This document shows, piece after piece, positions 4,198 through 21,361 of a stretch of 33,535 nt of DNA. Under the pieces are notes generated by a model that did no database searches, was not told the origin of the DNA, and saw only the letters and a program-made list of their open reading frames with translations. The DNA lies in the NCBI GenBank assembly GCA_021413735.1, contig JAIOPV010000259.1, forward strand, positions 1-33,535, given 5' to 3'. Position 1 is the stretch's first letter. Each line of letters starts with the position of its first letter. This DNA comes from Planctomycetota bacterium. Lineage in GTDB: Bacteria; Planctomycetota; Planctomycetia; Gemmatales; Gemmataceae. The translations under genes and the position numbers were made by a program.

Positions 4198-6858
4198 TTA
4201 CCCCGGCGTGGGAACGCCCGCGGGGGCCACCTCGAGGTGGTTGACGACACGCTTCACACCATCGACGCCCGCAGCGACGGTCTCAGCTTGCCACTGCTCC
4301 TTCGTGCCCGGGACCGTTCCCCGCAGCCACACCACGCCATCGACCGCAGTCACGCCGATGTGGCCATAATCCACACTGGGTTCGATCCGCAGGGCTTCCA
4401 ACACTTCCCGTTCCAGTTCGGCATTCGATTTCATCGCATTTCCCTTTCGAGTTAGTGTCAAATCGGACTGCATCTCACGTTCCATCTCAACGATCTCGCG
4501 CGTGGTCTTCAGAACCGTGTCGGGGTTCAACGAGATGCTGTCGATCCCGCACGCCACCAAGAATCGGGCGAACTCTGGGTAATCGCTCGGAGCCTGGCCG
4601 CAGATGCCAACCTTCCGACCACACGCCCGCGCCCGTCGGATCACATCGGCGATCAGCTTCTTCACCGCCGCGTTCCGCTCGTCAAACAGGTGGGCCACAA
4701 TTTCCGAATCGCGATCGAGGCCAAGCGTCAACTGTGTCAGATCGTTCGACCCGATCGAGAACCCGTCGAACACTTCCGCGAACTCTTCGGTGAGGATCAC
4801 GTTCGACGGGATTTCGCACATCACGTAAACTTCAAGCCCATTCTCACCCTGCTTGAGTCCGGCCTCGGCCATCACGGCAAGCACCCGCTTGCCTTCCTCG
4901 ACGGTCCGGCAGAACGGGACCATGAGCTTCACGTTCGTCAGGCCCATCTCCTCTCGCACCTGCTTCATCGCCCGGCATTCCAGCAGGAAGCCCTCCTTGT
5001 AGCGAGGGTCGTAGTAACGTGAAGCACCGCGGAACCCGATCATCGGATTCTCTTCCTTCGGCTCGAACGGCTCACCGCCAAGGAGTCCGGCGTACTCATT
5101 CGTCTTGAAGTCGGACAACCGGACGATCACCTCGCGGGGGTAGAACGCAGCCGCGATCCGTGCCACACCTTCCGCCAACCGCTCGACAAAGTACGCGGGT
5201 TTGTCCGGGTGGTTGCGTGTCAACTCGGCAATCTTCTGCTTCGCAGGGCCATCGGGTACCTTGTCGAAGTGAACGAGAGCCAGTGGATGAATCTTGATGG
5301 ACCCCGAGATGATGAACTCTTCACGAGCGAGCCCAACCCCATCGCACGGCAGCGACGCGAGCGCGAACGCCTGATCCGGGTTACCGACGTTTACCATCAC
5401 CTTCGTCTTCGGGCGTGCAAGGCTGCCAAGGTCGATCTCCCGGCGAGTGAAGATCAGCATGCCATCGTAGATCACCCCGACCTCGCCGCCCGCACACGAC
5501 ACGGTGACCGATTGACCATCCTTCAGAACCGACGTCCCTGTTCCAGTGCCGACGACACACGGTACGCCGATCTCGCGGCTCACGATGGCAGCGTGGCACG
5601 TTCGACCACCGCGGTTGGTGACGATCGCGGCCGCCATCTTCATCGTTGGTTCCCAGTCCGGGTCGGTCATGTCGGCGACCAGTACCTCACCGGGCTTGAA
5701 CGCTCGGAGTCCGTCCACATCCTTCACCACCCGCACCGGACCGGCCCCAATCTTCTCCCCGACACTGCGGCCGGTGAGGAGCACTTGCCCGGATTGAGGA
5801 AGTGAGTACACCTCGCGGACGACCTTGCTCGCCTGCGAATGAACGGTCTCTGGGCGCGCTTGAAGGATAAACAGTTCACCGGTCAGGCCGTCCTTTCCCC
5901 ACTCGATGTCCATGGGGGTCGGCTGCCCGGCTTTCTTCGAGTAGTGATCCTCGATCTGGCAACCCCAACGGGCGAGCGTCAAAACCTCGTCGTCAGTGAG
6001 GCTCAACCGCCCCCGGTCTTCTGCTGGCACCGGCACGATGCGAGTGCTGCCACCGCGGGTGGTGTAGATCAACTTCTCTTGCTTCGCCCCAACCGAACGC
6101 TTCAGGATCGGTCGGTGTCCCGTCTTCAGCGTGGGCTTGAACACCAGGAATTCATCGGGATCGACTCGCCCCTTGACGACGCTCTCGCCGAGGCCGTAGG
6201 CGCTGCTAATCAGGATGACGTCGCGGAACCCGCTCTCGGTGTCGAGCGTGAACATTACCCCAGCGGCCCCGACATCGGATCGCACCATCCGTTGCACACC
6301 GACTGAGAGCGCTACCGCAAGGTGGTCGAAGCCTTTATCCACCCGGTACGAGATCGCACGGTCGGTGAACAGCGACGCGATGCAGAGTCGGACAGCCTCC
6401 AGGATTCCGCGTTCGCCGCGGACATTCAGGTACGATTCTTGTTGGCCCGCGAAGCTGGCGGTCGGCAAGTCCTCGGCTGTGGCGCTGGATCGCACCGCTG
6501 TGTCGGTGTCGGCTCCGTAATCGCGACAGAGTTCGGCGTAAGCGTCGGCGATTTCCTTTCGGAGATCGTCGGGCAGTGGCCGAGCGAGAATGGCCTCGCG
6601 GATGCGTCGGCCACACTCAGCTAGAGCGGTGAGGTCGCCGGTATTGAGGCCCGTGAGTGTCTTGCGGACTTCTTCACCCAGACCGCTGGCACGGAGAAAG
6701 TGCCGATACGCTTCAGCTGTGACAGCGAATCCGTTTGGGATGCGAATCCCTGTCGGGACGAGTTGCTGATACATCTCGCCGAGCGAAGCGTTCTTGCCAC
6801 CGACGGTGGCAACATCCGAGAGACCGATCTCCCGAAACCACCGTATGAAGCGGGCCAT
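4198..6858 (-). CDS. ppsA: Phosphoenolpyruvate synthase with C-terminal BON domain
   Basis: PEP synthase (pyruvate, water dikinase) converts pyruvate and ATP to PEP, AMP and phosphate, feeding gluconeogenesis in the cytoplasm. The product is 886 residues from the ATG at 6858, which I prefer to an upstream in-frame start at 7005 because a GGAG site precedes it and the protein then begins MARFIRWFREIG, as the family does. The N-terminal ATP-grasp region contains VGGKNASLGEM and VRSSATAEDLPTASFAGQQ. The swivelling domain carries GGRTCHAA with the phospho-histidine at about 422. The PEP-binding barrel contains GSNDLTQLTLGLDRD and the ICGQAPS cysteine loop. After about residue 800 the usual end of the family is passed and a single BON domain (about 809-886) follows in frame. 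BON domains usually bind membranes or lipids. The linker looks like former intergenic DNA (see findings). Confidence 0.93.
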   Translation of the reverse strand: MARFIRWFREIGLSDVATVGGKNASLGEMYQQLVPTGIRIPNGFAVTAEAYRHFLRASGLGEEVRKTLTGLNTGDLTALAECGRRIREAILARPLPDDLRKEIADAYAELCRDYGADTDTAVRSSATAEDLPTASFAGQQESYLNVRGERGILEAVRLCIASLFTDRAISYRVDKGFDHLAVALSVGVQRMVRSDVGAAGVMFTLDTESGFRDVILISSAYGLGESVVKGRVDPDEFLVFKPTLKTGHRPILKRSVGAKQEKLIYTTRGGSTRIVPVPAEDRGRLSLTDDEVLTLARWGCQIEDHYSKKAGQPTPMDIEWGKDGLTGELFILQARPETVHSQASKVVREVYSLPQSGQVLLTGRSVGEKIGAGPVRVVKDVDGLRAFKPGEVLVADMTDPDWEPTMKMAAAIVTNRGGRTCHAAIVSREIGVPCVVGTGTGTSVLKDGQSVTVSCAGGEVGVIYDGMLIFTRREIDLGSLARPKTKVMVNVGNPDQAFALASLPCDGVGLAREEFIISGSIKIHPLALVHFDKVPDGPAKQKIAELTRNHPDKPAYFVERLAEGVARIAAAFYPREVIVRLSDFKTNEYAGLLGGEPFEPKEENPMIGFRGASRYYDPRYKEGFLLECRAMKQVREEMGLTNVKLMVPFCRTVEEGKRVLAVMAEAGLKQGENGLEVYVMCEIPSNVILTEEFAEVFDGFSIGSNDLTQLTLGLDRDSEIVAHLFDERNAAVKKLIADVIRRARACGRKVGICGQAPSDYPEFARFLVACGIDSISLNPDTVLKTTREIVEMEREMQSDLTLTRKGNAMKSNAELEREVLEALRIEPSVDYGHIGVTAVDGVVWLRGTVPGTKEQWQAETVAAGVDGVKRVVNHLEVAPAGVPTPG
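4432..4460 (-). promoter_or_regulatory. Relic-like ribosome site and internal ATG at the PEP synthase-BON junction
   Basis: Reading the minus strand, the linker includes CGAAAGGGAA followed closely by an in-frame ATG at 4434 that would start a 78-residue BON protein. The spacing fits a ribosome site. The DNA also holds a TAA in another frame just upstream. This could allow separate translation of the BON part, or mark where two genes fused. Confidence 0.35.
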
Positions 6859-7248
6859 GAGTTCTCCAGTGGTTGGAAGTGGTGCGCGGTTTGGACCACA
6901 AAGCCGTGTGTTTGCTGTCGGAGTCATTGCATTCAACATGCCAAACGTGCCGAGCGGGTGAGATTCGCTAACTCCGAGCCCAGGAGCCGTGAATGAATCA
7001 GTCACAGCTCAATTCCGATGCTCGGCATACTGACGCGGATCCGCACACAGGTGTGCGGATTGGACCCGCGGTTTTGACTCAGCGGACGGGTTGGAGTAAG
7101 TCACCCACTGAGCCATTGCCCAAGACAGCTCGCAAGCAATTCGACGGCTACCTCGGATTATGGCTCTCGCTGCTTCGGCCCTGGAATTGCTCACTGATGC
7201 GCAGGCGTCACCACTTCACCATTCACGAGAACTTGAGGGGCGCGGCCC
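6859..7248. promoter_or_regulatory. Divergent control region between PEP synthase and the DUF47-like/half-PPDK pair
   Basis: This 390-base gap separates two oppositely oriented transcription units and must hold both promoters. It contains the 22-bp palindrome at 7039-7060. I could not pick out convincing -35/-10 boxes. A possible upstream in-frame extension of the PEP synthase (to 7005) has no family-like sequence and is not favoured. Confidence 0.5.
7039..7060. promoter_or_regulatory. 22-bp near-perfect palindrome, candidate operator
   Basis: Arms ATCCGCACAC and GTGTGCGGAT are separated by AG. Its length and dyad symmetry fit a site for a dimeric helix-turn-helix regulator. It lies between two divergent genes for PEP/pyruvate-node proteins, so one regulator could act on both. 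No regulator gene of this kind is adjacent, so the binding protein is unknown. Confidence 0.55.
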
Positions 7249-9195
7249 ATGTCGAAGGCGAAGATCGTCGGTGAACTCGGGGAGGAGGCATTGCTCTTGC
7301 CGGCGCTGGTCAACGAGGGATTGGCCGCCAACGACAGGGCCAAGTATCGGATGACACTTCTTCAAGCGGCTCGCGAACACGCCGACCACCCGCACCGGCC
7401 CGCACCCGAACTGAAGCGGGAACGCCTTGCGGCGGGCGAACTCGATGCCGAACTGGATACTGTGGTCGAGAGTAGTCGCCGGGACTCATCCGACACCTAC
7501 TCCATCCACTCCGGTCACCGTGTCTGCGAAGCCTTGGTGGATGATGTCCGCCAGATGCTCGCTCCTCTCCACGCCGCCGTCAGCGCGACGCCAGATGGCC
7601 AGGCTGATACGCGATACGAACAGCGACTCAACGCGATCCTCGCCCGAACCCCGATCCCCGCAGATGATCAGATCTCCGGAGCCGCGATCGACCGACTGAC
7701 CTCGGGCTCTCGTGATGCGGGCGACAGCTTGCATCTGCTGGTCATGGACCTGCACAAGGAGTTGAACAAGCTCCAGAGGCGGCTCGCAACTGAGACAATC
7801 GAAGGAGCCAGTGTCTACGGGATTCTCGACGCGGACCGATCCCTGATCACAGCGTTCATGGCTGGGTTGAACCGCACACGGGAGCTGAAATTCGAGCATC
7901 CCGGTCTTGGCACGACCGCAACCCGCAGCAATGACCGACTCGTTATCCAGAACGACATCGGACTCACTGCCGCCCACGTTCTCGTCATCCACATTGAGGG
8001 CAACCGGGTCACACTTACCTACACTGATGTTCACATCGAGCGGTTGCTCTTCTTCCAGAGCTTGTTCGAGCCGTTCGCCGTCGTGTGGCAGGACACGGTC
8101 TCGAAGCGAGGCACGGGGCTCGGCGAGGATCTGTACCATGTGTGCCTGGGAAGCTACACCGCTCGTGACCCTGGTGATTTGCTCGCTTACCTGACCCACC
8201 TTGGGTCGCGGCTTGTGTTCCTGATCGACTGGAACCGGGCGCGGAAACGGTTGCGGAAGTTTGCCAAGCGGCGTGTCTGCGTCGGCGTCCTGCGGTGGGC
8301 GGCCGACAACAACTACGGGCATATGGGCTTCCTGGTTCTGGGTGGGGATCAACTCATCTTCGATGCGTTGCGAGCCGGCAACCAACTCTCGCTCCCGCCG
8401 GCCGGGTTACTCTCGGACGTCATCGGCCCCGAACGCACTGGCGAGTTCCTCAAGTTCACAATCCAGACGGCCAGCGAGGGTTTGCGGGGTGGTCGCTCCG
8501 AGTTCCTGATTCGCGACGAGATCAGTGCCGAACTCCGACACTACATCGACACGGCCCACCAGTGGCTTCTCGCGTCGGCTGCCGAGCAGGCGTCACTCGC
8601 GGTGGAACTGGCTCTGGCCGCACGCGATCTGCTCACTTCAGCAGGCACGCCGCCAGACCGCGATTTCATCGAACGCACAGTGCGGCGAGCACGGAAGTGG
8701 GAACACCGAGCGGACCAACTCGTCAACCGCGGCCGAGGGAGTCGTGGTGAAGGGACCACGCCTATCGTTAATCTGCTCATCCAGGCTGACGATATCCCCG
8801 ATGCCCTCGAAGACGCCATCTACCGTCTCAGTCTCCTGGTAGCTCACGGGCAGAGGGAAGCATCCGTGGCGTTGACCGAATTGGCGACATTGGCGGCTGA
8901 AGGCGCGAGGGAGTATCTGAAGGCGGTGGAGACCGCCCGCTGCCTGCACCGGGCCAGTTCGCGAGATGAGGTCGACGACTTCCTCCGAGCAATCGATCGG
9001 GTATCGAGCGTGGAACACGAAAGCGATGACACCCACCGGCGGGCCCAGGCGGAGGTTCTCACCTTCGCGGGCGACTTCAAGCAGTGGCATCTGACGAGCC
9101 GGGTGGCAGACAAGTTCGAGGAAGCGACAGACGCATTGCTCCGGGCCGCTCTCCTTCTCCGCGATTACATTTTGGGTCAAGTGCTCCGACGCTGA
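7249..9195 (+). CDS. DUF47/PhoU-like C-terminal domain protein with large uncharacterised N-terminal half
   Basis: The product is 648 residues, starting at ATG 7249 with a GAGGGG site upstream. About residues 431-645 are almost wholly helical and resemble DUF47/PhoU-like proteins: paired acidic stretches such as RKWEHRADQLV, ADDIPDALEDAIYRL, VEHESDDTHRRAQ and DKFEEATDALL, the type of E/D pattern that binds metal in PhoU relatives. DUF47 proteins alone are about 200 residues, so this one is three times longer. Residues 1-190 are charged and helical. Residues about 190-425 look like a mixed alpha/beta domain that I do not recognise. There is no signal peptide or membrane span, so it is probably cytoplasmic. 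Its stop lies 11 bases before the next ATG, so it is coupled with the half dikinase. Function is not established; a regulator or partner of the dikinase is an inference from the coupling. Confidence 0.85.
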   Translation: MSKAKIVGELGEEALLLPALVNEGLAANDRAKYRMTLLQAAREHADHPHRPAPELKRERLAAGELDAELDTVVESSRRDSSDTYSIHSGHRVCEALVDDVRQMLAPLHAAVSATPDGQADTRYEQRLNAILARTPIPADDQISGAAIDRLTSGSRDAGDSLHLLVMDLHKELNKLQRRLATETIEGASVYGILDADRSLITAFMAGLNRTRELKFEHPGLGTTATRSNDRLVIQNDIGLTAAHVLVIHIEGNRVTLTYTDVHIERLLFFQSLFEPFAVVWQDTVSKRGTGLGEDLYHVCLGSYTARDPGDLLAYLTHLGSRLVFLIDWNRARKRLRKFAKRRVCVGVLRWAADNNYGHMGFLVLGGDQLIFDALRAGNQLSLPPAGLLSDVIGPERTGEFLKFTIQTASEGLRGGRSEFLIRDEISAELRHYIDTAHQWLLASAAEQASLAVELALAARDLLTSAGTPPDRDFIERTVRRARKWEHRADQLVNRGRGSRGEGTTPIVNLLIQADDIPDALEDAIYRLSLLVAHGQREASVALTELATLAAEGAREYLKAVETARCLHRASSRDEVDDFLRAIDRVSSVEHESDDTHRRAQAEVLTFAGDFKQWHLTSRVADKFEEATDALLRAALLLRDYILGQVLRR

Positions 9196-9206
9196 GGGAT
9201 CAACAC

Positions 9207-10841
9207 ATGGGTGGTGAGTTGTACCTGTTCGGGTGTCGCACACCCGAACCGCCGGAAGCGTCTCCCGAGGCGGTCGGGAACAAGGCCGCGAACCTGATCC
9301 GTATGGCAAGCGCTGGATTGCCAGTGCCACCCGGGTTCGTCCTTCCGACGGATCTCTGTCGTGACTATCTCGGCGGTGGCATGCTCCCCGTGGGAACGGC
9401 GGAATTGCTGCGCCTGGGAATCAGGGAACTCGAACAGGCCACGGGACAAACCTTCGGCGGCGACCGGCGCCCGCTCCTGGTGTCGGTGCGGTCCGGGGCG
9501 CCTGTCTCCATGCCGGGGATGCTCGACACAGTTCTGAACGTCGGGCTGTGTGATCGGACTCTGCCGGCGCTGGTGCGAGCAACCGGCAACCCCCGCCACG
9601 CCTGGGATTCCTACCGCCGCCTCGTGCAGTCTTACGCCGAGGTCGTCCGCGGTGTCTCGGCCGGCCCCTTCGACCAGGTGCTGGACGAACACCTCCGACG
9701 CGAGGCTGTGCCGACTGTTTCTGAACTCGACGTGGCCGCGTTAAAGGAAGTCACGCGGGGGTTTCTCGACCTGTACGCAACGGCCACCGGCTCCCCGTTC
9801 CCTCAAGACACCACGGACCAACTGACGGGCGCGGTCGAGGCTGTGTTCCGTTCTTGGCGGAGTCCGCGGGCGGTCGAGTACCGGCGACTCAACAAACTCG
9901 ACGACCTTGTCGGAACGGCCGTGACCATTCAAGCGATGGTGTTCGGCAACATGGGGGGCACATCCGGTTCGGGCGTGGGTTTCAGCCGGAATCCAGCAAC
10001 GGGTGAGAACGAACTTTACCTCGACTTCCTCTGGAATGCCCAAGGGGAGGATGTGGTTTCGGGCCGCTGTGCTGTTGAAGGTACTGTCGGATTGCAGGAA
10101 TCCAGTCCCGAACTCTTCCTCCGACTCCGTGAAGCCGTGGGACGGTTGGAGGCGCTCTTTCACGATGCCCAGGATTTCGAGTTCACCGTGCAGGAAGGCC
10201 GCCTCTACCTGCTCCAGACACGTTCTGCCAAGCGGACGCCGCTGGCAGCGCTGCGGATTGCCTGCGAGCAGGTTGCGGAAGGATTGATCGACGAGACGAC
10301 CGGCCTGGCCCGGCTCGCGAGCTACGACCTGAACGGAATCTCGACCGTGAGCGTTGCCGCGACGTCGGGTGTCCGCGAGGTGGGCAGCGGAACGCCGGCA
10401 AGCCCTGGAGTCGCCGTTGGAGAGGCCGTGTTTGATCCACAACGGGCGGCAGTCATGGTGACCGCCGGGCGGACGCCGATCCTTATCCGGGCTGACATCT
10501 CGACAGACGATATCGCCGGGCTTGCCGCCGCCGCTGGCATTCTCACGGCTCGTGGCGGCCGAACATCGCACGCCGCGGTCGTCGCCCGGCAACTTAATAA
10601 GGTGTGCGTCGTCGGCTGCCACGAACTCCAGATCGGACTCGACGGACAAAGTTGCCACATTGGAGATCAGTTCATCGCGGAGGGCGATCCAGTCTCGATC
10701 GACGGGCACACTGGTCGCGTTTATACCGGGAAGCTGGAAGTAACCCGCACGGTGCCGAGTTCCTACCTGACCGAAGTTGAGAAGTGGAAGGCTCACGTCG
10801 TGAACGTGGTTCCCTCCACGCTCACGCCAACCGATTCCTGA
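9207..10841 (+). CDS. Half-length pyruvate phosphate dikinase-like protein (ATP-grasp plus phosphohistidine domain, no PEP barrel)
   Basis: The 545-residue product starts at ATG 9207 with a GAGGGAT site that overlaps the upstream stop. Its sequence follows classical PPDK: VSVRSGAPVSMPGMLDTV and MVFGNMGGTSGSG in the ATP-grasp part, NAQGEDVVSG, LQTRSAKRTPLAA, then GGRTSHAAVVARQ with the phospho-histidine at about 455 and the regulatory-type threonine two residues before it. Classical PPDK is about 870-900 residues because a PEP/pyruvate-binding TIM barrel follows. Here the protein ends soon after the swivelling domain and the next 200 bases hold no remnant of the barrel. It should be able to bind ATP and phosphorylate its histidine, but the final acceptor is not evident. 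It may act with the DUF47-like protein encoded upstream. A truncated relic is possible, but the intact motifs argue against decay. Confidence 0.9.
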   Translation: MGGELYLFGCRTPEPPEASPEAVGNKAANLIRMASAGLPVPPGFVLPTDLCRDYLGGGMLPVGTAELLRLGIRELEQATGQTFGGDRRPLLVSVRSGAPVSMPGMLDTVLNVGLCDRTLPALVRATGNPRHAWDSYRRLVQSYAEVVRGVSAGPFDQVLDEHLRREAVPTVSELDVAALKEVTRGFLDLYATATGSPFPQDTTDQLTGAVEAVFRSWRSPRAVEYRRLNKLDDLVGTAVTIQAMVFGNMGGTSGSGVGFSRNPATGENELYLDFLWNAQGEDVVSGRCAVEGTVGLQESSPELFLRLREAVGRLEALFHDAQDFEFTVQEGRLYLLQTRSAKRTPLAALRIACEQVAEGLIDETTGLARLASYDLNGISTVSVAATSGVREVGSGTPASPGVAVGEAVFDPQRAAVMVTAGRTPILIRADISTDDIAGLAAAAGILTARGGRTSHAAVVARQLNKVCVVGCHELQIGLDGQSCHIGDQFIAEGDPVSIDGHTGRVYTGKLEVTRTVPSSYLTEVEKWKAHVVNVVPSTLTPTDS

Positions 10842-11040: not shown

Positions 11041-13539
11041 CTAATTTGCGTGGTCAGCGGTGGTTCTGCTGTCTGGCTTGACCGCGTTGGCATGCCAGAT
11101 CCGCGTGCAGTATTCCCTGATACTGCGGTCCGAAGAGAACCACCCCATCCTCGCCACATTCAGTATCGACTTCCTGGCCCAAGCGTCCGGATCGGCATAC
11201 GCGGCACTCACCTTGTCCTGGCACTCGACGTAAGACGCGTAATCAGCCAGTACGAGGAAGGGATCGCTGTAGATCAGATTGTCGCAGAGAGGGCGGAACA
11301 GTTCTCGGTTGCCATCGGAGAATGTGCCGTCAGCGATGCGATCGATGATTCGCCGCAGCCCCTCGTTCTTTTCCAGTTCCGCTGCCGGTCGATATCCTGC
11401 AATCAACCGGGCTCCAACTTGCTCAGTCGTCAGTCCGAACGTGAAAAAATTCTCGGCTCCGACCAAGTCGCGGATCTCGACATTTGCCCCGTCGAGGGTG
11501 CCGATCGTCAGCGCGCCATTCAGGGCGAACTTCATGTTCCCTGTACCGCTCGCTTCTTTTCCCGCAGTCGAAATCTGCTCGGAAAGATCGGCACCCGGAT
11601 AGATCGTCTGGGCTGACTGAACATTGAAGTCTGGGCTGAACACGACCCGTAGCCGACCGCGAACATCTGGGTCGGTGTTCACCACGTCCGCGACGGAGTG
11701 GATCAACTTGATGATGAGCTTCGCCATGAAGTAGCCCGGTGCGGCCTTACCGGCGAAGACGAATACCCGCGGGACGATGTCTACACCCGGTTGATCCTTG
11801 ACGCGGAGATATTGCCCAATGATGTGGAGGACGTTCAGGTGCTGCCGTTTGTACTCGTGGAACCGCTTGGCTTGGATATCGAATAGTGCATCCGGATCAG
11901 TGGCGATCCCCGTGCGAGTTGCGATCCGTGCGGCGAGTCGCTCCTTTGCCTTTCGCTTGACCGCTCGCCACTCTGAGCGAAAGGCAGCGTCGTTCGTGAG
12001 TGGTTCAAGTTTGCGGAGTTGCTCGAGATCCGCCGGCCATCCGTCCCCGATTGCCTTCGTGATGAGGACCGCGAGCGGCGGGTTCGCAAGCACCATGAAC
12101 CGTCGTGGCGTGACACCGTTCGTCACGTTCTGGAACTTCTCTGGCTCGAAATTGGCGAAGTCCTTCAACACCGACTCGGTCAGTAGTCGGCTGTGCAGAG
12201 CAGACACGCCGTTCACGGAATGACTGCCGACAGTTGCCAGGTTTGCCATCCGGACCGACTTCCCGCCTCGCTCGTCGATGATCGACAACCGCTCGACCCG
12301 ACCTGTATCGTTGGGATACGCCGTTCGTACCCTGTCGAGCCACCGACGGTTGATCTCAAAAATGATCTCCAGGTGCCGCGGGAGTAATCGGCCAAAGAGT
12401 TCGAGCGACCACGCCTCAAGTGCCTCAGGCAGCAGAGTGTGATTGGTGTACGCGAATGTCTGACGGGTCACATCCCAGGCTTGGTCCCAGCCCATTGCGT
12501 ACTCGTCCACAAGCAACCGCATCAACTCCGCAACCGCGATCGCCGGGTGCGTGTCGTTCAGTTGTGCCGCGTATTTTTTGTGGAACCCGGACAAGTCCGC
12601 TGATCGCTGGGCGTGAATACGGGCCATGTCCCGTAGCGAACAGGCAACGAAGAAGTACTGCTGCTGGAGTCGCAACGCCTTGCCCTGAAGCGGTTCGTCA
12701 TTCGGATAGAGAACCTTGGTGATATTCTCTGACTTCACCTTTTCGTTCACGGCCCGCTCGTAATCGCCGACGTTGAACGCCTGGAAGTCGAACGACTCCA
12801 CCGCCTGGGCTTGCCAGAGTCGGAGCATGTTCGCGGTTCCGACCTTGTAGCCGAGGATCGGCGTATCGTACGCAACTCCAAGAACGACTCGCTCGGGAAC
12901 CCACTCGACGCGATACCGCCCGGCGGCGTCTGTGTAGTTGCGGGTGTGTCCTCCGAAACCGACTGGAACGGTGATTTCCGGTCGGTAGATTTCCCAGGGG
13001 TTCCCAAACCTCAGCCACTTATCTGTGAGTTCAACTTGCCACCCGTCGCGGATTGCCTGATCGAAGATGCCGAATTCGTAGCGAATGCCGTAGCCGATGG
13101 TCGGGATCTGGAGTGTGGCCAGCGAATCGAGGAAACACGCGGCCAACCTCCCAAGACCGCCGTTGCCGAGCCCAGGCTCTTCCTCCTGATCGAGCAGATC
13201 GTCGAAGTTGAGACCGAGTTCCGCGACTGCTTCGCGAGCCTGGTCGTACAGCCCGAGATTGATGAGATTGTTGCCGAGGTGTGGGCCGAGGAGGTATTCA
13301 GCAGATAGGTAGCAAACGGTGCGAGCGGCGGTGCGGTAATACGTCTCGAAGGTATCCATTGCATGGCGAACCACCCGATCACGGACGGTGTGTGCAAGCG
13401 CCATATACCGGTCGTTGGATGTCGCGACCGCCGGGAACTTGACCTGCGCGTAATAGAGGTTCTCAAGGATGGCGTGCTTGAGGTCAGCGGGAGTGGAACC
13501 TGTGCGTGTCGCATCGTGGGAGAGTGGATTGGTTTTCAT
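11041..13539 (-). CDS. glgP: Glycogen/alpha-glucan phosphorylase
   Basis: This PLP enzyme releases glucose-1-phosphate from the ends of glycogen in the cytoplasm. The 832-residue length is that of the standard GT35 family. Visible family motifs are TVCYLSAEYLLGP near residue 75, DQEEEPGLGNGGLGRLAACFLDSLA near 115-140, QLNDTHPAIAVAELMR, FQNVTNGVTPRRF, FDIQAKRFHEYKRQ, and EASGTGNMKFALNGA with the PLP lysine at about 670. It starts at the ATG at 13539 with only a weak AGG-type site. It diverges from the sensor kinase gene across 108 bases and converges on the half dikinase. With glgC 4 kb away, the window covers both glycogen breakdown and the first step of synthesis. Nothing suggests truncation. 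Confidence 0.97.
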   Translation of the reverse strand: MKTNPLSHDATRTGSTPADLKHAILENLYYAQVKFPAVATSNDRYMALAHTVRDRVVRHAMDTFETYYRTAARTVCYLSAEYLLGPHLGNNLINLGLYDQAREAVAELGLNFDDLLDQEEEPGLGNGGLGRLAACFLDSLATLQIPTIGYGIRYEFGIFDQAIRDGWQVELTDKWLRFGNPWEIYRPEITVPVGFGGHTRNYTDAAGRYRVEWVPERVVLGVAYDTPILGYKVGTANMLRLWQAQAVESFDFQAFNVGDYERAVNEKVKSENITKVLYPNDEPLQGKALRLQQQYFFVACSLRDMARIHAQRSADLSGFHKKYAAQLNDTHPAIAVAELMRLLVDEYAMGWDQAWDVTRQTFAYTNHTLLPEALEAWSLELFGRLLPRHLEIIFEINRRWLDRVRTAYPNDTGRVERLSIIDERGGKSVRMANLATVGSHSVNGVSALHSRLLTESVLKDFANFEPEKFQNVTNGVTPRRFMVLANPPLAVLITKAIGDGWPADLEQLRKLEPLTNDAAFRSEWRAVKRKAKERLAARIATRTGIATDPDALFDIQAKRFHEYKRQHLNVLHIIGQYLRVKDQPGVDIVPRVFVFAGKAAPGYFMAKLIIKLIHSVADVVNTDPDVRGRLRVVFSPDFNVQSAQTIYPGADLSEQISTAGKEASGTGNMKFALNGALTIGTLDGANVEIRDLVGAENFFTFGLTTEQVGARLIAGYRPAAELEKNEGLRRIIDRIADGTFSDGNRELFRPLCDNLIYSDPFLVLADYASYVECQDKVSAAYADPDAWARKSILNVARMGWFSSDRSIREYCTRIWHANAVKPDSRTTADHAN

Positions 13540-13647: not shown

Positions 13648-15897
13648 ATGGATCCCGTGATCGATTCGACGCCCATCATGGGTGAGCCGGAACGGCAGAA
13701 GGCCCGACGACTCACACTCACCGAACTCCGCCCGCCACGCGCCATTCCGGGTTATGAGCAGGAACGCTTTCTCGGGCGAGGGGCGTTCGGCGAAGTTTGG
13801 GTTGCCATCGACAGCAATAACGGCCGAAAGGTTGCGATCAAGTACTACCACCGTCGCGGTGGGCTGGACTGGTCGCTGTTGTCTCGTGAGGTGGAAAAAC
13901 TCCGCTACCTGTTCGGCGATCGACACGTCGTTCAACTCCTGCAAGTCGGTTGGGAGAGTGACCCGCCGTACTACGTCATGGAGTACATGGAGAACGGGTC
14001 GCTCGAAGACTTGCTCCGGGAAGCGACTCTGCCAATCGAACGTGCATTGACCATGTTCAAGGAGATTGCGACCGGTTTGGTTCATGCTCACGGTAAGGGA
14101 ATCCTCCACTGCGATTTGAAGCCCGCGAACGTCATGCTCGATCAGGACGGGCAACCACGGCTTGCCGATTTCGGTCAATCGCGGCTTTCACACGAGCACT
14201 CCCCGGCATTGGGGACACTCTTTTACATGGCTCCGGAACAGGCTGATATGACTGCCGCACCGGATGCTCGGTGGGATGTCTACGCCCTCGGTGCGGTCGT
14301 GTACCGAATGCTGGTCGGGGAACCGCCATACCGCAACCCGGAGGCAATCGCGGCGATCCAGACTCCGGGCACACTGGAAGAACGACTCGCCCGTTACCGC
14401 CATCTCCTCGCTGCCGCACCGAAGCCCACCGCGCACCGAACAGTTCCTGGCGTGGATGCTGCTCTTGCTTCGATCATCGAGAAGTGCCTCGCGGTCAATC
14501 CCAGAGACCGCTACCCGAACGTCCAGGCTGTGTTATCCGCGCTGGACGCTCGAAGCGCGGCGCGTGCTCGCAAGCCGTTGCTCCTCCTCGGCGGGGTTGG
14601 CCCACTTCTCGTCCTGTTGGTCATCCTCGTTGTTGGGGGGTACGAATTCGCGCGGATCATCCAGGTCACCGAGCAGGAAGAGAAGGAACGAGCCCGTGAT
14701 CTGAATCGTTTGGCCGCACGAGCGGAAGCGGATCGGCTTGGGTGGGAAGTTGCCGCACGCTGGCAGTTGCTTCAACAAGAGGCGACCGACCCGAGCCTCC
14801 GCGCCGGGCTTGTTGGCCGCGTGCCGCCCGAAGATCGCGCTGGTGCGGAGAAGGTGAGCCGGTGGCTCGTCGAGCGGCAAGAATACTGGGGTCGGCGAGG
14901 CGGTGTGGGTCTTCAGGGGACAAACTGGGTGGTTCTGACTCGCGATGGGTATATCCGGGGGTGTACAGAACCCGACCCAGAGCGACCGAACCGTTGTCGT
15001 GTCATGACAGGAACACTCGGTGCCTACTTCGGCTTTCGTGACTACTTCCATGGGCGTGGCCAGGACATGCCCATCGCGAACGGTCCACCACTGGTTGATC
15101 CGCCGCGACCGATCACCCAGCCGCACCGCTCCGCGGTGTTCCGACAACTTCCACAGAACACGTTCGCTGTCGCGTACTCGACACCGATTCCGTCCCTCGA
15201 TCCTTCTGATCCGAACCCAGTTGGCGTGTTGATTATGATCAGCGATCTGGTCGGTGCGACCCGACTGCGAGGCGAGGATGGCCGCGACCGGTTCCTCGCC
15301 CTGGTCGATACCGGGCGAGACGAACACGGGCGGCGTGGGCTGATCATCCGCCACCCGTATCAGGAGGATTACAAGGACCGACCCACCGAGTTGCCCCTGG
15401 CGTTCGCGCCGGATTTGGTCGAGAAGGCAGGGTATGCCGGACCGTACTCGGACGCCGTTGGACGCGAACCCTGGGGACTGCGGTTCGCCGTGCCGTGGAT
15501 TGCCGCGATCGAATCCGTTCGAGTGCCCGTTGCCCCCAAGCCGGACGCGACCCCGGAGCAGCGGGATACCGGTTGGGTCGTCGTCGTTCAGGAAACCGAG
15601 AGCGGAGTCGTCGGTCCGATTCAGACGCTCCGAAGTCGGCTCGTCTGGCGCTCGCTCTTCGCACTCTTGCTGGTCGCACTGCTCTTGGGTGGGTTGTGGC
15701 TGCTCGTTCTCGTCGTGCTGGATGCCGCACCAACGTCGCGGGTTGTCCAATTCTTCCGGCGTCAGGTCGGGTTGAAGAGTGGGCTATCGGGCGGAACTTC
15801 CTCAACCAGTAGTTCGGTCTCCGGCGCCTCGGGTTCAGGCGGCGTGAAGTCAGGAGTCTCATCTCACCCCGCCGCACCTTCCAAGTTACCGGAGTAA
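13648..15897 (+). CDS. Transmembrane serine/threonine protein kinase with extracytoplasmic sensor domain
   Basis: The 749-residue product has a cytoplasmic kinase domain (about 34-300): glycine loop GRGAFGEV (43-50), lysine 65 in VAIK, HCDLKPAN (154-161) with catalytic Asp156, DFG (174-176) and APE (195-197). Arginine of the usual HRD is replaced by Cys155, making this a non-RD kinase, which usually does not need activation-loop phosphorylation. A transmembrane segment follows at about 309-333. Residues about 340-665, between two membrane spans, look like a Cache-type ligand-sensing region. The second span is at about 670-694, and a serine/glycine-rich tail ends the protein. Start 13648 has an AGG site; Met11 is an alternative. 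The stop lies five bases before the cyclase ATG, and the cyclase ribosome site GGAG sits inside this gene, so the two are coupled. A kinase-to-FHA relay is the obvious inference. Confidence 0.93.
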   Translation: MDPVIDSTPIMGEPERQKARRLTLTELRPPRAIPGYEQERFLGRGAFGEVWVAIDSNNGRKVAIKYYHRRGGLDWSLLSREVEKLRYLFGDRHVVQLLQVGWESDPPYYVMEYMENGSLEDLLREATLPIERALTMFKEIATGLVHAHGKGILHCDLKPANVMLDQDGQPRLADFGQSRLSHEHSPALGTLFYMAPEQADMTAAPDARWDVYALGAVVYRMLVGEPPYRNPEAIAAIQTPGTLEERLARYRHLLAAAPKPTAHRTVPGVDAALASIIEKCLAVNPRDRYPNVQAVLSALDARSAARARKPLLLLGGVGPLLVLLVILVVGGYEFARIIQVTEQEEKERARDLNRLAARAEADRLGWEVAARWQLLQQEATDPSLRAGLVGRVPPEDRAGAEKVSRWLVERQEYWGRRGGVGLQGTNWVVLTRDGYIRGCTEPDPERPNRCRVMTGTLGAYFGFRDYFHGRGQDMPIANGPPLVDPPRPITQPHRSAVFRQLPQNTFAVAYSTPIPSLDPSDPNPVGVLIMISDLVGATRLRGEDGRDRFLALVDTGRDEHGRRGLIIRHPYQEDYKDRPTELPLAFAPDLVEKAGYAGPYSDAVGREPWGLRFAVPWIAAIESVRVPVAPKPDATPEQRDTGWVVVVQETESGVVGPIQTLRSRLVWRSLFALLLVALLLGGLWLLVLVVLDAAPTSRVVQFFRRQVGLKSGLSGGTSSTSSSVSGASGSGGVKSGVSSHPAAPSKLPE

Positions 15898-15902
15898 CAC
15901 GC

Positions 15903-17726
15903 ATGCCGGACTTGCTTGCTCAGGGAGCAGACCCGAAGGATCACTGGCGACGCTCACTCACATCTGGGCGAGCGGTGCAGATTGGTCGCACCACCAGCGA
16001 ACTGGCGATCCCCTGGGACCGCTACGCATCGGGGGCACACGCCGAACTCATGTGGAACTCGGATCGACTTCGGGTTCGTCGGTTGCCCTCCGCACGCAAT
16101 CCGGTCTTCTTTCGTGGCGAGGAACTCGACACGTTCGAGGTTCGGTCGGGCGAGCGTTTCGCGATTGGCGATACCACGTTCACGGTGATCGCGGAAGAAA
16201 GCAGTAGTTCGTCCGACTCTCGCGCGGTGGTTCAAGAGCGGGCCGTCAATCCCGATGATCTGAAGAAGCTGCCCTTCCGCGATGCCCCACGACAACTCGA
16301 CGTCCTCCGCCGCCTCCCAACCGTGATCTCGTCTGCTGCCGATGACAACGACCTATCGGTTCAGTTGGTCAACCTACTGCTGGCTGGCATCCTCAGGGCC
16401 GAAGTGATTGCGCTGGTCGTCCTGGCTTCGCCGACTGATAGTTCGACGAACGGGGATCTGAAACCCGGCGCGGTGACCACGTTGCACTGGGAAGGGCGAC
16501 GGTTCGCGGGAACCGAGTTCCAGCCAAGCCGACGACTGGTGCAGGAAGCGGTGGCACGCCAGCAGCGGACCGTGCTTCATGTGTGGGCAGCACCTCGAAC
16601 CAACGAGGGCAAGTCCGAGGCTACATTCACTCTCCAAAGTGACCTCGATTGGGCGTTTTGTACGCCGGTTCGCGGGGAATCGTGCCCTGGGTGGGCGATC
16701 TACGTCGCCGGCCGGGTAACCGGTGATCTTGCGGCGAGCGTGGTCGCACCATTGACGGAAAACGAACTTGCCGACGACCTCAAATTCGCCGAACTCACGG
16801 CCGATGTTCTCGGTTCGCTTCGGCAAGTTCGGAAACTCCAGCGTGACCAGGCACGACTCAATCAGTTCTTCTCGCCGACGGTGCAGAAAGTCCTCACCAC
16901 TGCCGAACCGGAGGCGGTTCTTCGTCCACGCGAGACGGACGTGACCGTGATGTTCTGCGATCTTCGCGGGTTTTCGCATACCGTCGAGGCAGAAGCCGAG
17001 GCTGGCCATCTGCTCGAAATTCTGGAGCGAGTCAGTCAAGCTCTCGGAGTCATGACACAGCAAATCCTCGGTCATGAAGGAGTGGTCGCGGACTTCCTTG
17101 GTGATGCCGCTCTCGGCTTCTGGGGTTGGCCGTTAGCTGATCCAAAGATGGTTCGGCAAGCTTGCCTGGCAGCAATAGGAATCCGCCGATACTACGAGTC
17201 TCACACGAGGCAACCGGGCAGCCCACTGGCAGGTTTTCGAGTGGGAATCGGAGTGGCGACTGGACGAGCGGTGGCTGGGCGGATCGGTCCAAACGAGCAG
17301 GCCAAGGTGACGGTGTTCGGGCCTGTCGTCAACCTGGCTGCAAGACTTGAGAGCATGACGAAGCAACTTCACGTCCCGATTCTGATCGACGAGCCGACCG
17401 CTCGGGTCGTTCGGGAAATGATCGGAGCCACGGAGGCTCGCGTCCGGCGACTTGCGAAGGTCCGCCCTTACGGACTGGAAACGCCGCTGGTGGTGAGTGA
17501 ATTGTTGCCACCAGAGGGGCCGGACGAGTTGACCAATGCCGACCTGACAAACTACGAGCGAGCGCTCGACGCCTTCTTGATCGGTGATTGGAACGCATCA
17601 TTTGATGCGCTCCATCTCGTCTCACCGCGCGATCGAGGCAAGGACATCCTGACCGGTTGCATCATCGCCAACAACCACATCCCGCCCGCTGGTTGGACCG
17701 GTGTAATCGACCTCGGGCAGAAGTAG
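15903..17726 (+). CDS. FHA - GAF-like - class III adenylate/guanylate cyclase
   Basis: The 607-residue protein begins with an FHA domain (about 20-98; IGRTTSELAIP then SGAHAEL), which reads phosphothreonine. A GAF-like region follows (about 115-290). The cyclase domain spans about 315-510, introduced by LNQFFSPTVQKVL, a typical pre-cyclase linker. Metal-binding aspartates are Asp353 in FCDLRGF and Asp401 in DFLGD. Asn477 and Arg481 of VNLAARLE, used in transition-state binding, are present. The lysine normally found in KFxGD is aspartate here (Asp397), so nucleotide choice cannot be read from the usual code. No membrane span is seen. It is translationally coupled to the membrane kinase, so phosphorylation by that kinase could recruit or switch the FHA domain and set cyclic nucleotide output. 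It converges on glgC with a 40-base gap. Confidence 0.93.
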   Translation: MPDLLAQGADPKDHWRRSLTSGRAVQIGRTTSELAIPWDRYASGAHAELMWNSDRLRVRRLPSARNPVFFRGEELDTFEVRSGERFAIGDTTFTVIAEESSSSSDSRAVVQERAVNPDDLKKLPFRDAPRQLDVLRRLPTVISSAADDNDLSVQLVNLLLAGILRAEVIALVVLASPTDSSTNGDLKPGAVTTLHWEGRRFAGTEFQPSRRLVQEAVARQQRTVLHVWAAPRTNEGKSEATFTLQSDLDWAFCTPVRGESCPGWAIYVAGRVTGDLAASVVAPLTENELADDLKFAELTADVLGSLRQVRKLQRDQARLNQFFSPTVQKVLTTAEPEAVLRPRETDVTVMFCDLRGFSHTVEAEAEAGHLLEILERVSQALGVMTQQILGHEGVVADFLGDAALGFWGWPLADPKMVRQACLAAIGIRRYYESHTRQPGSPLAGFRVGIGVATGRAVAGRIGPNEQAKVTVFGPVVNLAARLESMTKQLHVPILIDEPTARVVREMIGATEARVRRLAKVRPYGLETPLVVSELLPPEGPDELTNADLTNYERALDAFLIGDWNASFDALHLVSPRDRGKDILTGCIIANNHIPPAGWTGVIDLGQK

Positions 17727-19297: not shown

Positions 19298-21361
19298 ATG
19301 CCCACATCCGAGGCGGAATTCTGCCTGTCGCGGAGCGAGAGCACGGCCCAGTTCCTTCGCCACTGGTCTCACCCGATCATGACCCACACCGACCGTGACT
19401 TACTTTTTGGCGTCATCGCCCTCCAGAACGATCTTATCGACACGCGACAGTTCGTGGATGCCTTCACGCTTTGGGCACTCCACAAGATCGGCTCGCTGGC
19501 GGATCTCCTCATCGAACGCGGCTGGCTCGATCCGATGGACCGAAACCACATCGAATACTTGGTCGAGCGGCATATCAAGAAGCACTGGATTCTCGCGGAA
19601 TCGCCCGTGCCGGCAGACCCCAGCATGCACACGGCGCCGAACGTGGCAAAGGCGCAAACTCATCAACTCCGCAAAGGTGCCACCCCGGGCGATCCGCTCG
19701 TTCGGGTGTCCCCAATTTCGGCGCCACTTCGCGACGACGGACGCCTGAGGTTGCTTGGGGTGCTTTCGACTGGCGGGATCGGGCAGGTGTGGAAGGCGCT
19801 GGATCAAGTGTTTGACCGGACTGTTGCTTTGAAGGAGTTAAAGCCCGAACTCGCCACGAACCCACAGCACCAGGAACGGTTCGTTCGCGAAGCCCAGATC
19901 ACAGGCCAACTGGAGCATCCGGGAATTGTGCCGGTCTACGACTTCCACGCCGGAGACGGCGCAACCCGCTGCTACTACACCATGCGGTTCGTGAAGGGCC
20001 GAACCCTGACGGAAGTGATCCGTGAATACCACCGTGAGCGGCTCGCCGGGGGTACCGGTCGATTTCTCCCCTTGCTGCAAAACTTCATCAGCATTTGCCA
20101 AACGATCGCATATGCCCACTCGCGGAACGTGATCCACCGCGACCTGAAGGGAGACAACATCATCGTCGGCGACTTTGGCGAGGTGATCGTTCTCGATTGG
20201 GGGCTTGCGAAGCGGCTCGACGACAACCCGGCTGGGTCGGCGTCCGAGCCGGACCGTAGCGAAACGATGGCTTACCTCGAACCGAAGCCGGATTCGGTGA
20301 CCTCTCCTTCTGCAACGGTGCAAGGCGACCGACTCGGCACGCCGGCTTACATGGCTCCGGAGCAGGCCACCGGTCAGATTCAACTGATCGACGCCCGAAC
20401 TGATGTCTACGGTCTCGCGGCGATCCTCTACGAAATCCTGGTCGGTGAGCCGCCGTTCTGGGGCACGAGCATCCTCGACACGGTTCACAAGGTCATCCAC
20501 GAACCGCCAGTCCCTCCACGTGAGCGCGTGGGAGAAGTGCCTGTCGAACTGGAGAAACTGTGCCTGCGTGGTCTGGCGAAGGATCGGAATGATCGCCCAG
20601 GTTCTGCGGCTGAGCTCGCCCTCCGGGTCCAATTCTGGATTGCCGAGCGAGCCGAGCGGAAACGGACCGAACAGGAACGGGAACGATTCTTCAACTTGTC
20701 CATGGATTTGCTTGCCATCCTCGATCTGGAAGGGCGATTGACGCAAACCAACCCGGCGTGGGGAACGATTCTGGGCTGGTCAGCGGAGCAACTCCACGGC
20801 CACGAGGTGCGTGACTTCATTCACCCGGATGACCGGCATCGGATGACAATGGCCCTCGAACGCCTCCTGGCCAGCGAATCGGCAACCGATGTTGAGTTGC
20901 AGTGCGTGACTCGTGGCGGCTCCTACCGTTGGATTCACTGGAACGCGACGCTCATTCGCGGCGAGTCAGCGCTCTACGTTGTCGGCCGCGATGTGAGCGA
21001 GCGGAAGCAGGCCGAGCAGATGTTCCGCGATCTTCTGGAATCGGCCCCGGATGCTATGGTGGTCGTGAACAGCGCAGGTTGTGTCGTGCTGGTGAATACT
21101 CAAATGGAACGACTTTTCGGCTACACCCGCGAGGAGGTGCTGGGTCAGCCGATTGAAGTGTACGTGCCGCGTGCCTACCGGGCCGACCATGTCGCAAAGG
21201 TGCAAGCATACATTGCCAATCCGTCGTTCCGACCGATGGGGATCGGGCGAGAATTAACGGGTCAGCACAAGGATGGTCATGCGTTCCCGGTCGAGATCAG
21301 TCTGAGCCCTGTGAGAACCGAACAGGGGTTACTGATCTCGTGCGCGATTCGGGGCAAATGA
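19298..21361 (+). CDS. Serine/threonine protein kinase with two PAS domains, apparently C-terminally truncated
   Basis: The frame from ATG 19298 gives 687 residues. The family-like sequence begins at MTHTDRDLLFGVIALQ, so ATG 19379 may be the true start; 19298 has the better AGG site. An N-terminal helical region typical of planctomycete kinases spans about 28-100. The kinase domain (about 150-450) has STGGIGQV as glycine loop (first glycine replaced by serine), VALKELK, HRDLKGDN (280-287), DWG (300-302) instead of DFG, and APE (353-355). Two PAS domains follow at about 463-575 and 577-687, which usually sense redox, light or small ligands. No membrane span. The protein stops right where related PAS proteins continue with a D(I/V)(T/S)ERK linker: the sequence reads LLISCAIRGK then TGA. 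The DNA that follows is foreign to this gene (metal ATPase and LuxR fragments), so an original output domain may have been lost. Confidence 0.88.
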   Translation: MPTSEAEFCLSRSESTAQFLRHWSHPIMTHTDRDLLFGVIALQNDLIDTRQFVDAFTLWALHKIGSLADLLIERGWLDPMDRNHIEYLVERHIKKHWILAESPVPADPSMHTAPNVAKAQTHQLRKGATPGDPLVRVSPISAPLRDDGRLRLLGVLSTGGIGQVWKALDQVFDRTVALKELKPELATNPQHQERFVREAQITGQLEHPGIVPVYDFHAGDGATRCYYTMRFVKGRTLTEVIREYHRERLAGGTGRFLPLLQNFISICQTIAYAHSRNVIHRDLKGDNIIVGDFGEVIVLDWGLAKRLDDNPAGSASEPDRSETMAYLEPKPDSVTSPSATVQGDRLGTPAYMAPEQATGQIQLIDARTDVYGLAAILYEILVGEPPFWGTSILDTVHKVIHEPPVPPRERVGEVPVELEKLCLRGLAKDRNDRPGSAAELALRVQFWIAERAERKRTEQERERFFNLSMDLLAILDLEGRLTQTNPAWGTILGWSAEQLHGHEVRDFIHPDDRHRMTMALERLLASESATDVELQCVTRGGSYRWIHWNATLIRGESALYVVGRDVSERKQAEQMFRDLLESAPDAMVVVNSAGCVVLVNTQMERLFGYTREEVLGQPIEVYVPRAYRADHVAKVQAYIANPSFRPMGIGRELTGQHKDGHAFPVEISLSPVRTEQGLLISCAIRGK

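Follow-up and report, generated by a model that had tools for sequence, protein, structure and literature searches.

A 33,535-nucleotide (nt) stretch of DNA from a Planctomycetota bacterium of the family Gemmataceae (assembly GCA_021413735.1, contig JAIOPV010000259.1) was analyzed; this stretch, called the window here, is one entire contig of a 9.8-Mb genome. It encodes a tandem gene pair, a half-length pyruvate, phosphate dikinase (PPDK) and, directly upstream, a larger partner protein. The pair is conserved in bacteria and archaea; its dikinases form a single lineage with intact catalytic residues and no phosphoenolpyruvate (PEP)/pyruvate-binding barrel, the partner has a predicted PhoU fold, and polyphosphate genes lie near some of the loci. 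We estimate a probability of about 0.5 that the two proteins act as an ATP-driven phosphohistidine donor with its acceptor or regulator in polyphosphate or phosphate metabolism. The original prediction, a reading of the window's sequence by a model, had spoken of a possible new phosphotransfer pair. A conserved pair of the phosphotransfer type was indeed found, but a half-length PPDK is not in itself new: according to the accessible text of PMC13400623, published in 2026, VadK of mycobacteria is one. The features of the pair are as follows.

7249..9195, forward strand: partner protein, 648 amino acids (aa), with an N-terminal domain without a Pfam family and a C-terminal PhoU/DUF47-fold domain (open reading frame [ORF], structure model, alignment of 76 members)
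7249..8520, forward strand: part coding for the N-terminal domain, residues 1-424 (Pfam, model, alignment)
8515..9192, forward strand: part coding for residues 423-648, the PhoU-fold domain, in which two ExxxD motifs are invariant (structure match, alignment)
9194..9199, forward strand: Shine-Dalgarno-like GAGGGA, 7 nt ahead of ATG 9207 (sequence reading)
9207..10841, forward strand: half-length PPDK, 544 aa, with an ATP-grasp and a phosphohistidine domain, phosphohistidine 455 (Pfam, TIGR01828, alignment)

The half-length dikinase and its partner

The window dikinase contains the Pfam domains PPDK_N (PF01326) and PEP-utilizers (PF00391), and the Pfam scan gave no match to the barrel domain PF02896. 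Both the intact ATP-grasp and phosphohistidine motifs, with the histidine near residue 455, and the ending without a barrel had been read correctly from the sequence beforehand. The protein aligned with positions 7 to 526 of the 865 positions of TIGR01828 and scored 560 bits, which does not reach the family cut-off of 843.45. Since GGRTSHAAVVAR begins at residue 450, the phosphohistidine is H455. This residue and R95, E325, Q337, and R339 were invariant in all 72 aligned dikinases, and position 323 was Asp in 43 and Glu in 29 of them; these residues were assigned to the catalytic set by the numbering and residue roles of PPDK. The alignment excluded rows shorter than 500 or longer than 560 aa, and one cut sequence (L063, 501 aa) was removed by hand.

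The point at which the dikinase ends is conserved. The C terminus lay 72 to 94 residues past the phosphohistidine in all 72 aligned proteins, and in the full set of 79 rows (76 paired loci, L010, L011, and the window), 73 dikinases measured 522 to 553 aa. Relatives that continue into a barrel would, according to the original prediction, mark the window copy as broken; none of the 73 does so, and one of them (L047) ends where its contig ends. Among the remaining six rows, five were shortened by contig ends and one (L071) has a disturbed frame. In this last case (L071/L144, Candidatus Accumulibacter adjunctus), the dikinase frame is 795 aa long and the expected C-terminal part matches another frame, reflecting either assembly error or decay.

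Compared with PPDK itself (TIGR01828; PDB 1kbl and 9pzl), the half-dikinases have the ATP-grasp and phosphohistidine domains and the catalytic residues in common, aligning with residues 13 to 530 of chain 9pzl_A, but they lack the barrel, fall in a separate clade, and come with a tandem partner gene. In annotated records, short PPDK-like genes are named "PEP/pyruvate-binding domain-containing protein" despite having no usual pyruvate-binding barrel.

In the window, 11 nt separate the partner gene from the dikinase gene downstream. The program-listed dikinase ORF begins at GTG 9084. ATG 9207 is the likely start, giving 544 aa, because GAGGGA (9194-9199) overlaps the TGA stop of the partner (9193-9195), an overlap of ribosome site and stop codon that had also been predicted.

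Conserved pairing across genomes had been put forward as a check on the pair. Relatives of the partner were collected by searching species genomes with an alignment of three sequences, and the best 80 of 211 relatives were analyzed. A half-dikinase directly followed the partner on the same strand in 76 of the 80 loci, a recurrence that places the pair beyond chance; the pair is real rather than an artefact and is more than a single odd gene. The taxa include Planctomycetota, Proteobacteria, Amycolatopsis, methanogens, and Thaumarchaeota, and the spacing between the two genes ranged from a 4-nt overlap (-4) to 170 nt for start codons that a script selected. Four loci had no half-dikinase behind the partner. 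Two of them (L027 and L046) end at a contig edge; the other two (L069 and L084) come from alphaproteobacterial metagenome assemblies that match only full-length PPDK, in frames of 928 and 891 aa. Among 294 sampled planctomycete genomes, the partner occurred in 3, the window's own included; the half-dikinase lay directly behind it in the other two (G235 and G290), where that of G290 is cut by the contig end.

Partner and dikinase distances were correlated (r = 0.85, 68 rows), and none of 2,000 Mantel permutations gave a value as high, a correlation that is also expected from co-inheritance alone. Most of the pair loci are metagenome assemblies, and single archaeal placements could therefore be binning errors. 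Loci not labeled as metagenomic were found in Methanoculleus sp. FWC-SCC1 (L029) and in the complete genomes of Anaeromyxobacter (L053) and Azotobacter vinelandii (L092). In addition, two plasmids in PLSDB carry a gene annotated "DUF47 family protein" or "phosphate transport regulator" followed by one annotated "PEP/pyruvate-binding domain-containing protein."

The AlphaFold model of the partner had a mean predicted local distance difference test score of 89.3 (91.4 for residues 1-424 modeled alone). Residues 423-646 have a predicted PhoU fold, matching PDB 3l39 with a Z score of 23.7 (203 residues aligned, root mean square deviation 3.2) and other PhoU chains with Z scores of 18 to 20; a profile search also retrieved 3l39 (E = 1.9e-6). 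PhoU proteins use ExxxD motifs to bind metal, and two such motifs (E485/D489 and E589/D593) were invariant in all 76 aligned partners; the alignment excluded 5 of the 80 loci, whose partner reading was shorter than 630 aa. The DUF47 model PF01865 gave 17.0 bits on the window partner, below its gathering cut-off of 24.4, and matched 60 of the 76 family members at E<=0.1 (best, 2.4e-12). Thus, the earlier label of a DUF47-like gene of 648 residues fits the C-terminal third but not the rest of the protein. In this third, the partner resembles PhoU/DUF47 proteins (PF01865; 3l39) in its predicted fold and its two ExxxD motifs; it differs from them in a 424-residue front domain without a Pfam family and in its pairing with a dikinase.

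Residues 1-424 had no Pfam match at E<=0.001, yet 32 of the 39 invariant positions of the partner fall in this N-terminal domain. The residues invariant in 76 of 76 partners include H162, H169, H217, H243, D260, H262, R265, D327, R332, K333, and H358; overall, six His and several Asp, Arg, Lys, and Asn residues are invariant, many of them at strand ends or in loops of the modeled alpha/beta core. In the model, this arrangement suggests a functional pocket more than a scaffold. Known folds were tried and rejected: the best Foldseek match had an E value of only 0.041, and the best VIA match (phage T4 MotA C-domain) had a Z score of 8.3 over 105 residues, within the range that this tool describes as common. 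A profile of the domain matched PDB sequences only at E>=0.57. This absence of a match is not proof of a new fold. An anti-phage system was rejected on the basis of PADLOC, whose models gave no matches to the partner or the dikinase at E<=0.01.

Polyphosphate genes near the pair and the proposed mechanism

In a first Pfam scan of 104 adjacent ORFs, made with a longest-ORF caller and including antisense ORFs, CHAD (3 ORFs), Ppx-GppA (2), CYTH (2), and PPK2 (1) appeared amid commoner housekeeping families; a pyridine-nucleotide oxidoreductase family (5 ORFs) was the most frequent. Rescans with a codon-usage caller covered 248 of 262 ORFs within two genes of the pair, missing the CHAD part of L014, and placed CHAD among the commonest families (4 of 127 and 2 of 121 near ORFs). 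A profile was then made from 20 CHAD regions (L160, among them, is probably a wrong-strand translation) and run on six-frame translations. CHAD was found in 10 of the 80 loci, and all 10 were confirmed with Pfam. It lay within 5 kb of the pair in eight loci, compared with 0.17 expected from the CHAD density in 22 pair genomes (31 genes in 105.1 Mb, with rounded sizes), and at 6 to 7 kb in L044 and L019. The eight close loci belong to five lineages: Planctomycetales, Methanomicrobiales (three loci), Amycolatopsis (two loci), Azotobacter, and Rhizobiales. The 22 genomes, mainly isolates or long contigs, had been chosen by hand before CHAD was noticed. As a control, the 16 full-length PPDKs of these genomes were all without a CHAD match within 5 kb on their contigs, some of which end sooner; where a full-length PPDK and CHAD shared a contig, they were more than 100 kb apart. 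CHAD was present in 21 of the 22 pair genomes and in 6 of 14 control genomes that were unmatched for taxonomy.

CHAD domains bind polyphosphate, as stated in the accessible text of PMC6537752. At L014 (3676-6666), a single frame runs without interruption through CHAD and the partner, which are joined by an Ala/Pro-rich stretch; a fusion is likely from this reading, short of proof because the locus is a metagenome assembly. In the archaeal locus L050, ppk1, CHAD, ppx, partner, and dikinase genes are consecutive on one strand. L029 has ppx on the strand opposite to the pair, 12 nt away, in L070 PPK2 is encoded next downstream, and ppk1 is located about 4 kb from the pair in L044 and 6.5 kb in L043. 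Altogether, a polyphosphate gene was near the pair in 12 of the 80 loci. With PPK1, PPK2, Ppx, and the CHAD proteins (phosins), the pair shares gene neighborhoods in these 12 loci and, with CHAD, one reading frame; neither window protein has a Pfam match to these families. CHAD also occurs in other fusions in the methanogen loci, to a Ppx-type HD domain in L044 (74-1765) and to a calcineurin-like phosphoesterase in L029 (13696-15645).

Several observations weigh against reading the pair as a module of polyphosphate or phosphate metabolism. The CHAD model, motif patterns, and Pfam on near neighbors revealed no polyphosphate gene in 68 of the 80 loci, many of them on short contigs, and none in the window, and the only CHAD match in the window's own genome is on another contig (C182). 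With three of the close loci in Methanomicrobiales and two in Amycolatopsis, the CHAD associations represent about five independent events, not eight, and several of these genes are on the strand opposite to the pair. CHAD genes occur widely and might accompany a phosphate gene of any kind. Other neighbor families recur as often as CHAD: the second rescan was led by gyrase A (4), short-chain dehydrogenase (4), and UPF0047 (3), and a related neighbor cluster including gyrase-like genes is present in four Methanoregulaceae (archaeal) loci. Finally, the partner occurs without a half-dikinase in L069 and L084.

In the mechanism that we propose, the half-PPDK would move phosphate from ATP onto H455 of its swivelling domain. 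This first step would be PPDK-like, probably with inorganic phosphate (Pi) as cosubstrate and AMP and pyrophosphate (PPi) as products. With the barrel gone, the phosphohistidine domain would dock instead on the partner, at its N-terminal domain. This domain carries the invariant His, Asp, Arg, and Lys residues and would hold the acceptor or itself be phosphorylated; the PhoU-fold tail would bind metal or phosphate or report phosphate status. The phosphoryl group could be exchanged reversibly with polyphosphate, which would be made or consumed, or the phosphorylated partner could control polyphosphate enzymes. We infer the docking, the acceptor, and the reaction direction in this scheme; polyphosphate or phosphate metabolism is the most likely process served. 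A more specific version, which we offer tentatively and regard as improbable, is that the split dikinase represents a further polyphosphate enzyme besides PPK1 and PPK2. It would reversibly link ATP and Pi to AMP and PPi with growth or breakdown of the chain, by way of a phosphohistidine and the new partner domain, in a two-gene unit kept in both bacteria and archaea; Candidatus Accumulibacter, which is known for storing polyphosphate, is among its hosts.

If the proposed mechanism is correct, Accumulibacter, Azotobacter, and similar organisms would have an additional way to make or use polyphosphate, or to control it, and the swivelling phosphohistidine domain of PPDK would be reused between proteins. 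One lineage of short PPDK-like genes, in bacteria and archaea, brings its own partner with an undescribed domain, and the polyphosphate neighborhood of some loci provides a concrete candidate acceptor. The pair was not described in the titles and abstract starts of the open-access literature searched, most subscription journals being outside the search. This type of enzyme is known, but its lineage here, the domain of the partner, and the connection to polyphosphate seem not to have been described in that literature. In the accessible text of PMC8981147, a PPDK from Streptomyces and PptA, a CHAD protein, are treated separately.

VadK and other explanations of the pair

Two genes that flank the pair bear on the alternatives.

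4198..7005, reverse strand: PEP synthase (pyruvate, water dikinase) with a C-terminal BON domain, divergent, upstream of the pair; context (Pfam/family models)
11041..13539, reverse strand: glycogen phosphorylase, convergent neighbor of the dikinase gene; context (Pfam/family models)

The accessible text of PMC13400623 reports that VadK (Rv1127c) of Mycobacterium tuberculosis uses ATP and Mg2+ to phosphorylate itself on His and that its solubility is raised by its operon partner Rv1126c. The half-dikinases might likewise be regulatory histidine kinases that phosphorylate themselves and tune central-carbon enzymes by binding, with a regulatory or solubilizing partner and with the polyphosphate genes incidental. 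VadK and the half-dikinases are both half-length PPDKs with the same two domains and no barrel, and on NF004531 the window dikinase scores 457.3, slightly above the curated cut-off of 456. In addition, the PEP synthase gene is next to the pair in the window, its homologue adjoins the pair in L080, the closest relative, and carbon-metabolism families occur among near neighbors (acetolactate synthase small subunit, 3; short-chain dehydrogenase, 4).

Phylogeny and scores separated the two forms. A maximum-likelihood tree of 68 rows, hand-chosen for spread, comprised 31 of 74 eligible half-dikinases, 33 full-length PPDKs, and 4 VadK-type proteins; the last, all from one Amycolatopsis genome, were defined as short actinobacterial PPDKs scoring 513 to 752 on NF004531, and the M. 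tuberculosis VadK sequence was not part of the comparison. In this midpoint-rooted tree (200 bootstrap trees, with the bootstrap incompletely settled), the 31 half-dikinases formed one side of a branch with support of 98/95, recovered in 99% of the bootstrap trees, whereas the VadK-type proteins grouped with actinobacterial full-length PPDKs (100/99). Given these separate positions, the barrel seems to have been lost independently, by separate truncations, in the two half-length forms. Of six further paired dikinases, one passed the NF004531 cut-off (459.7) and the others scored 398 to 439; in all seven tested, TIGR01828 scored above NF004531, the reverse of the order in VadK-type proteins. 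No homologue of the DUF47-like partner was present in the fetched stretches around the four VadK-type genes. Membership of the half-dikinases in VadK was rejected by the tree and the reversed order of the two scores, and the likeness in architecture was retained; the VadK-like explanation of their function is possible but unlikely. The Amycolatopsis genome (G299) encodes its four VadK-type short PPDKs on different contigs (L126, L127, L128, and L130 on C101, C36, C112, and C35), together with a full-length PPDK and a paired half-dikinase.

A role in control of phosphate uptake, in which the phosphoryl group of the histidine passes to the partner and the PhoU domain gates a Pit or Pst transporter according to ATP and Pi, is doubtful. 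The PhoU fold and invariant ExxxD motifs of the partner are consistent with it, as is the annotation of one partner as a "phosphate transport regulator," and the first half-reaction of PPDK-type enzymes uses Pi. However, Pit was absent from the 25 commonest families listed for each rescan, lists that mostly omit families with a single member. Pst genes could be among the neighbors: a general ABC permease family (BPD_transp_1) was present in four near ORFs, and binding proteins of another type (SBP_bac_1) were present in three.

Glucan, water dikinases consist of an ATP domain and a phosphohistidine domain without a barrel, the same architecture as that of the half-dikinase, and the original prediction had favored glycogen as the acceptor. 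The window contains genes for glycogen phosphorylase and GlgC. However, no homologue of the phosphorylase adjoined the pair in 82 other loci (many on short contigs), the sole distant relative (24% identity) being about 4 kb upstream of the pair in L029; it is polyphosphate genes that recur as neighbors in several lineages. Moreover, neither window protein has a carbohydrate-binding domain (Pfam, E<=0.001; none in the partner even at E<=10), as the prediction itself had noted, so the pair differs from glucan, water dikinases in lacking both a carbohydrate-binding module and a conserved glucan gene neighbor. A glucan acceptor was rejected on both grounds, and a dikinase that phosphorylates glycogen is very improbable.

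A barrel encoded elsewhere could complete an ordinary PPDK, and a search for such a gene had also been suggested. All three PF02896 matches in the window's own genome sit in frames of 660, 909, and 936 aa, and all 29 matches in 10 other pair genomes sit in frames of at least 595 aa, so no stand-alone barrel was found in these 11 genomes; by their lengths, the frames would fit phosphotransferase system enzyme I, PEP synthase, PtsP, and PPDK. Full-length PPDK was also present in 15 of 22 pair genomes, and the other 7, some of them drafts, showed only weak matches to other PEP-utilizing enzymes. An ordinary PPDK, broken or completed in trans, has in its favor the clear homology to PPDK (560 bits to TIGR01828) and the full-length enzyme in those 15 genomes, but it is disfavored to the point of being the least probable explanation by the end point that 73 of the 79 rows share, the separate clade, the lack of a stand-alone barrel, and the 7 genomes in which no full-length PPDK was seen. 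Three further planctomycete PPDK frames shorter than 700 aa (G057, G073, and G053), among the matches listed, run to contig ends.

Other genes of the window

In the window PEP synthase, the BON domain (residues 861-928) is fused in frame; in the L080 homologue, which is 87% identical, only the three PEP synthase domains were detected. Near glgC and the glycogen phosphorylase gene (glgP), the window also contains genes for a Ser/Thr kinase (13648-15897), an adenylate/guanylate cyclase-domain protein (15903-17726), and a PAS-containing Ser/Thr kinase (19298-21361), and other window genes encode the planctomycete-type PSCyt1/PSD1 domains.

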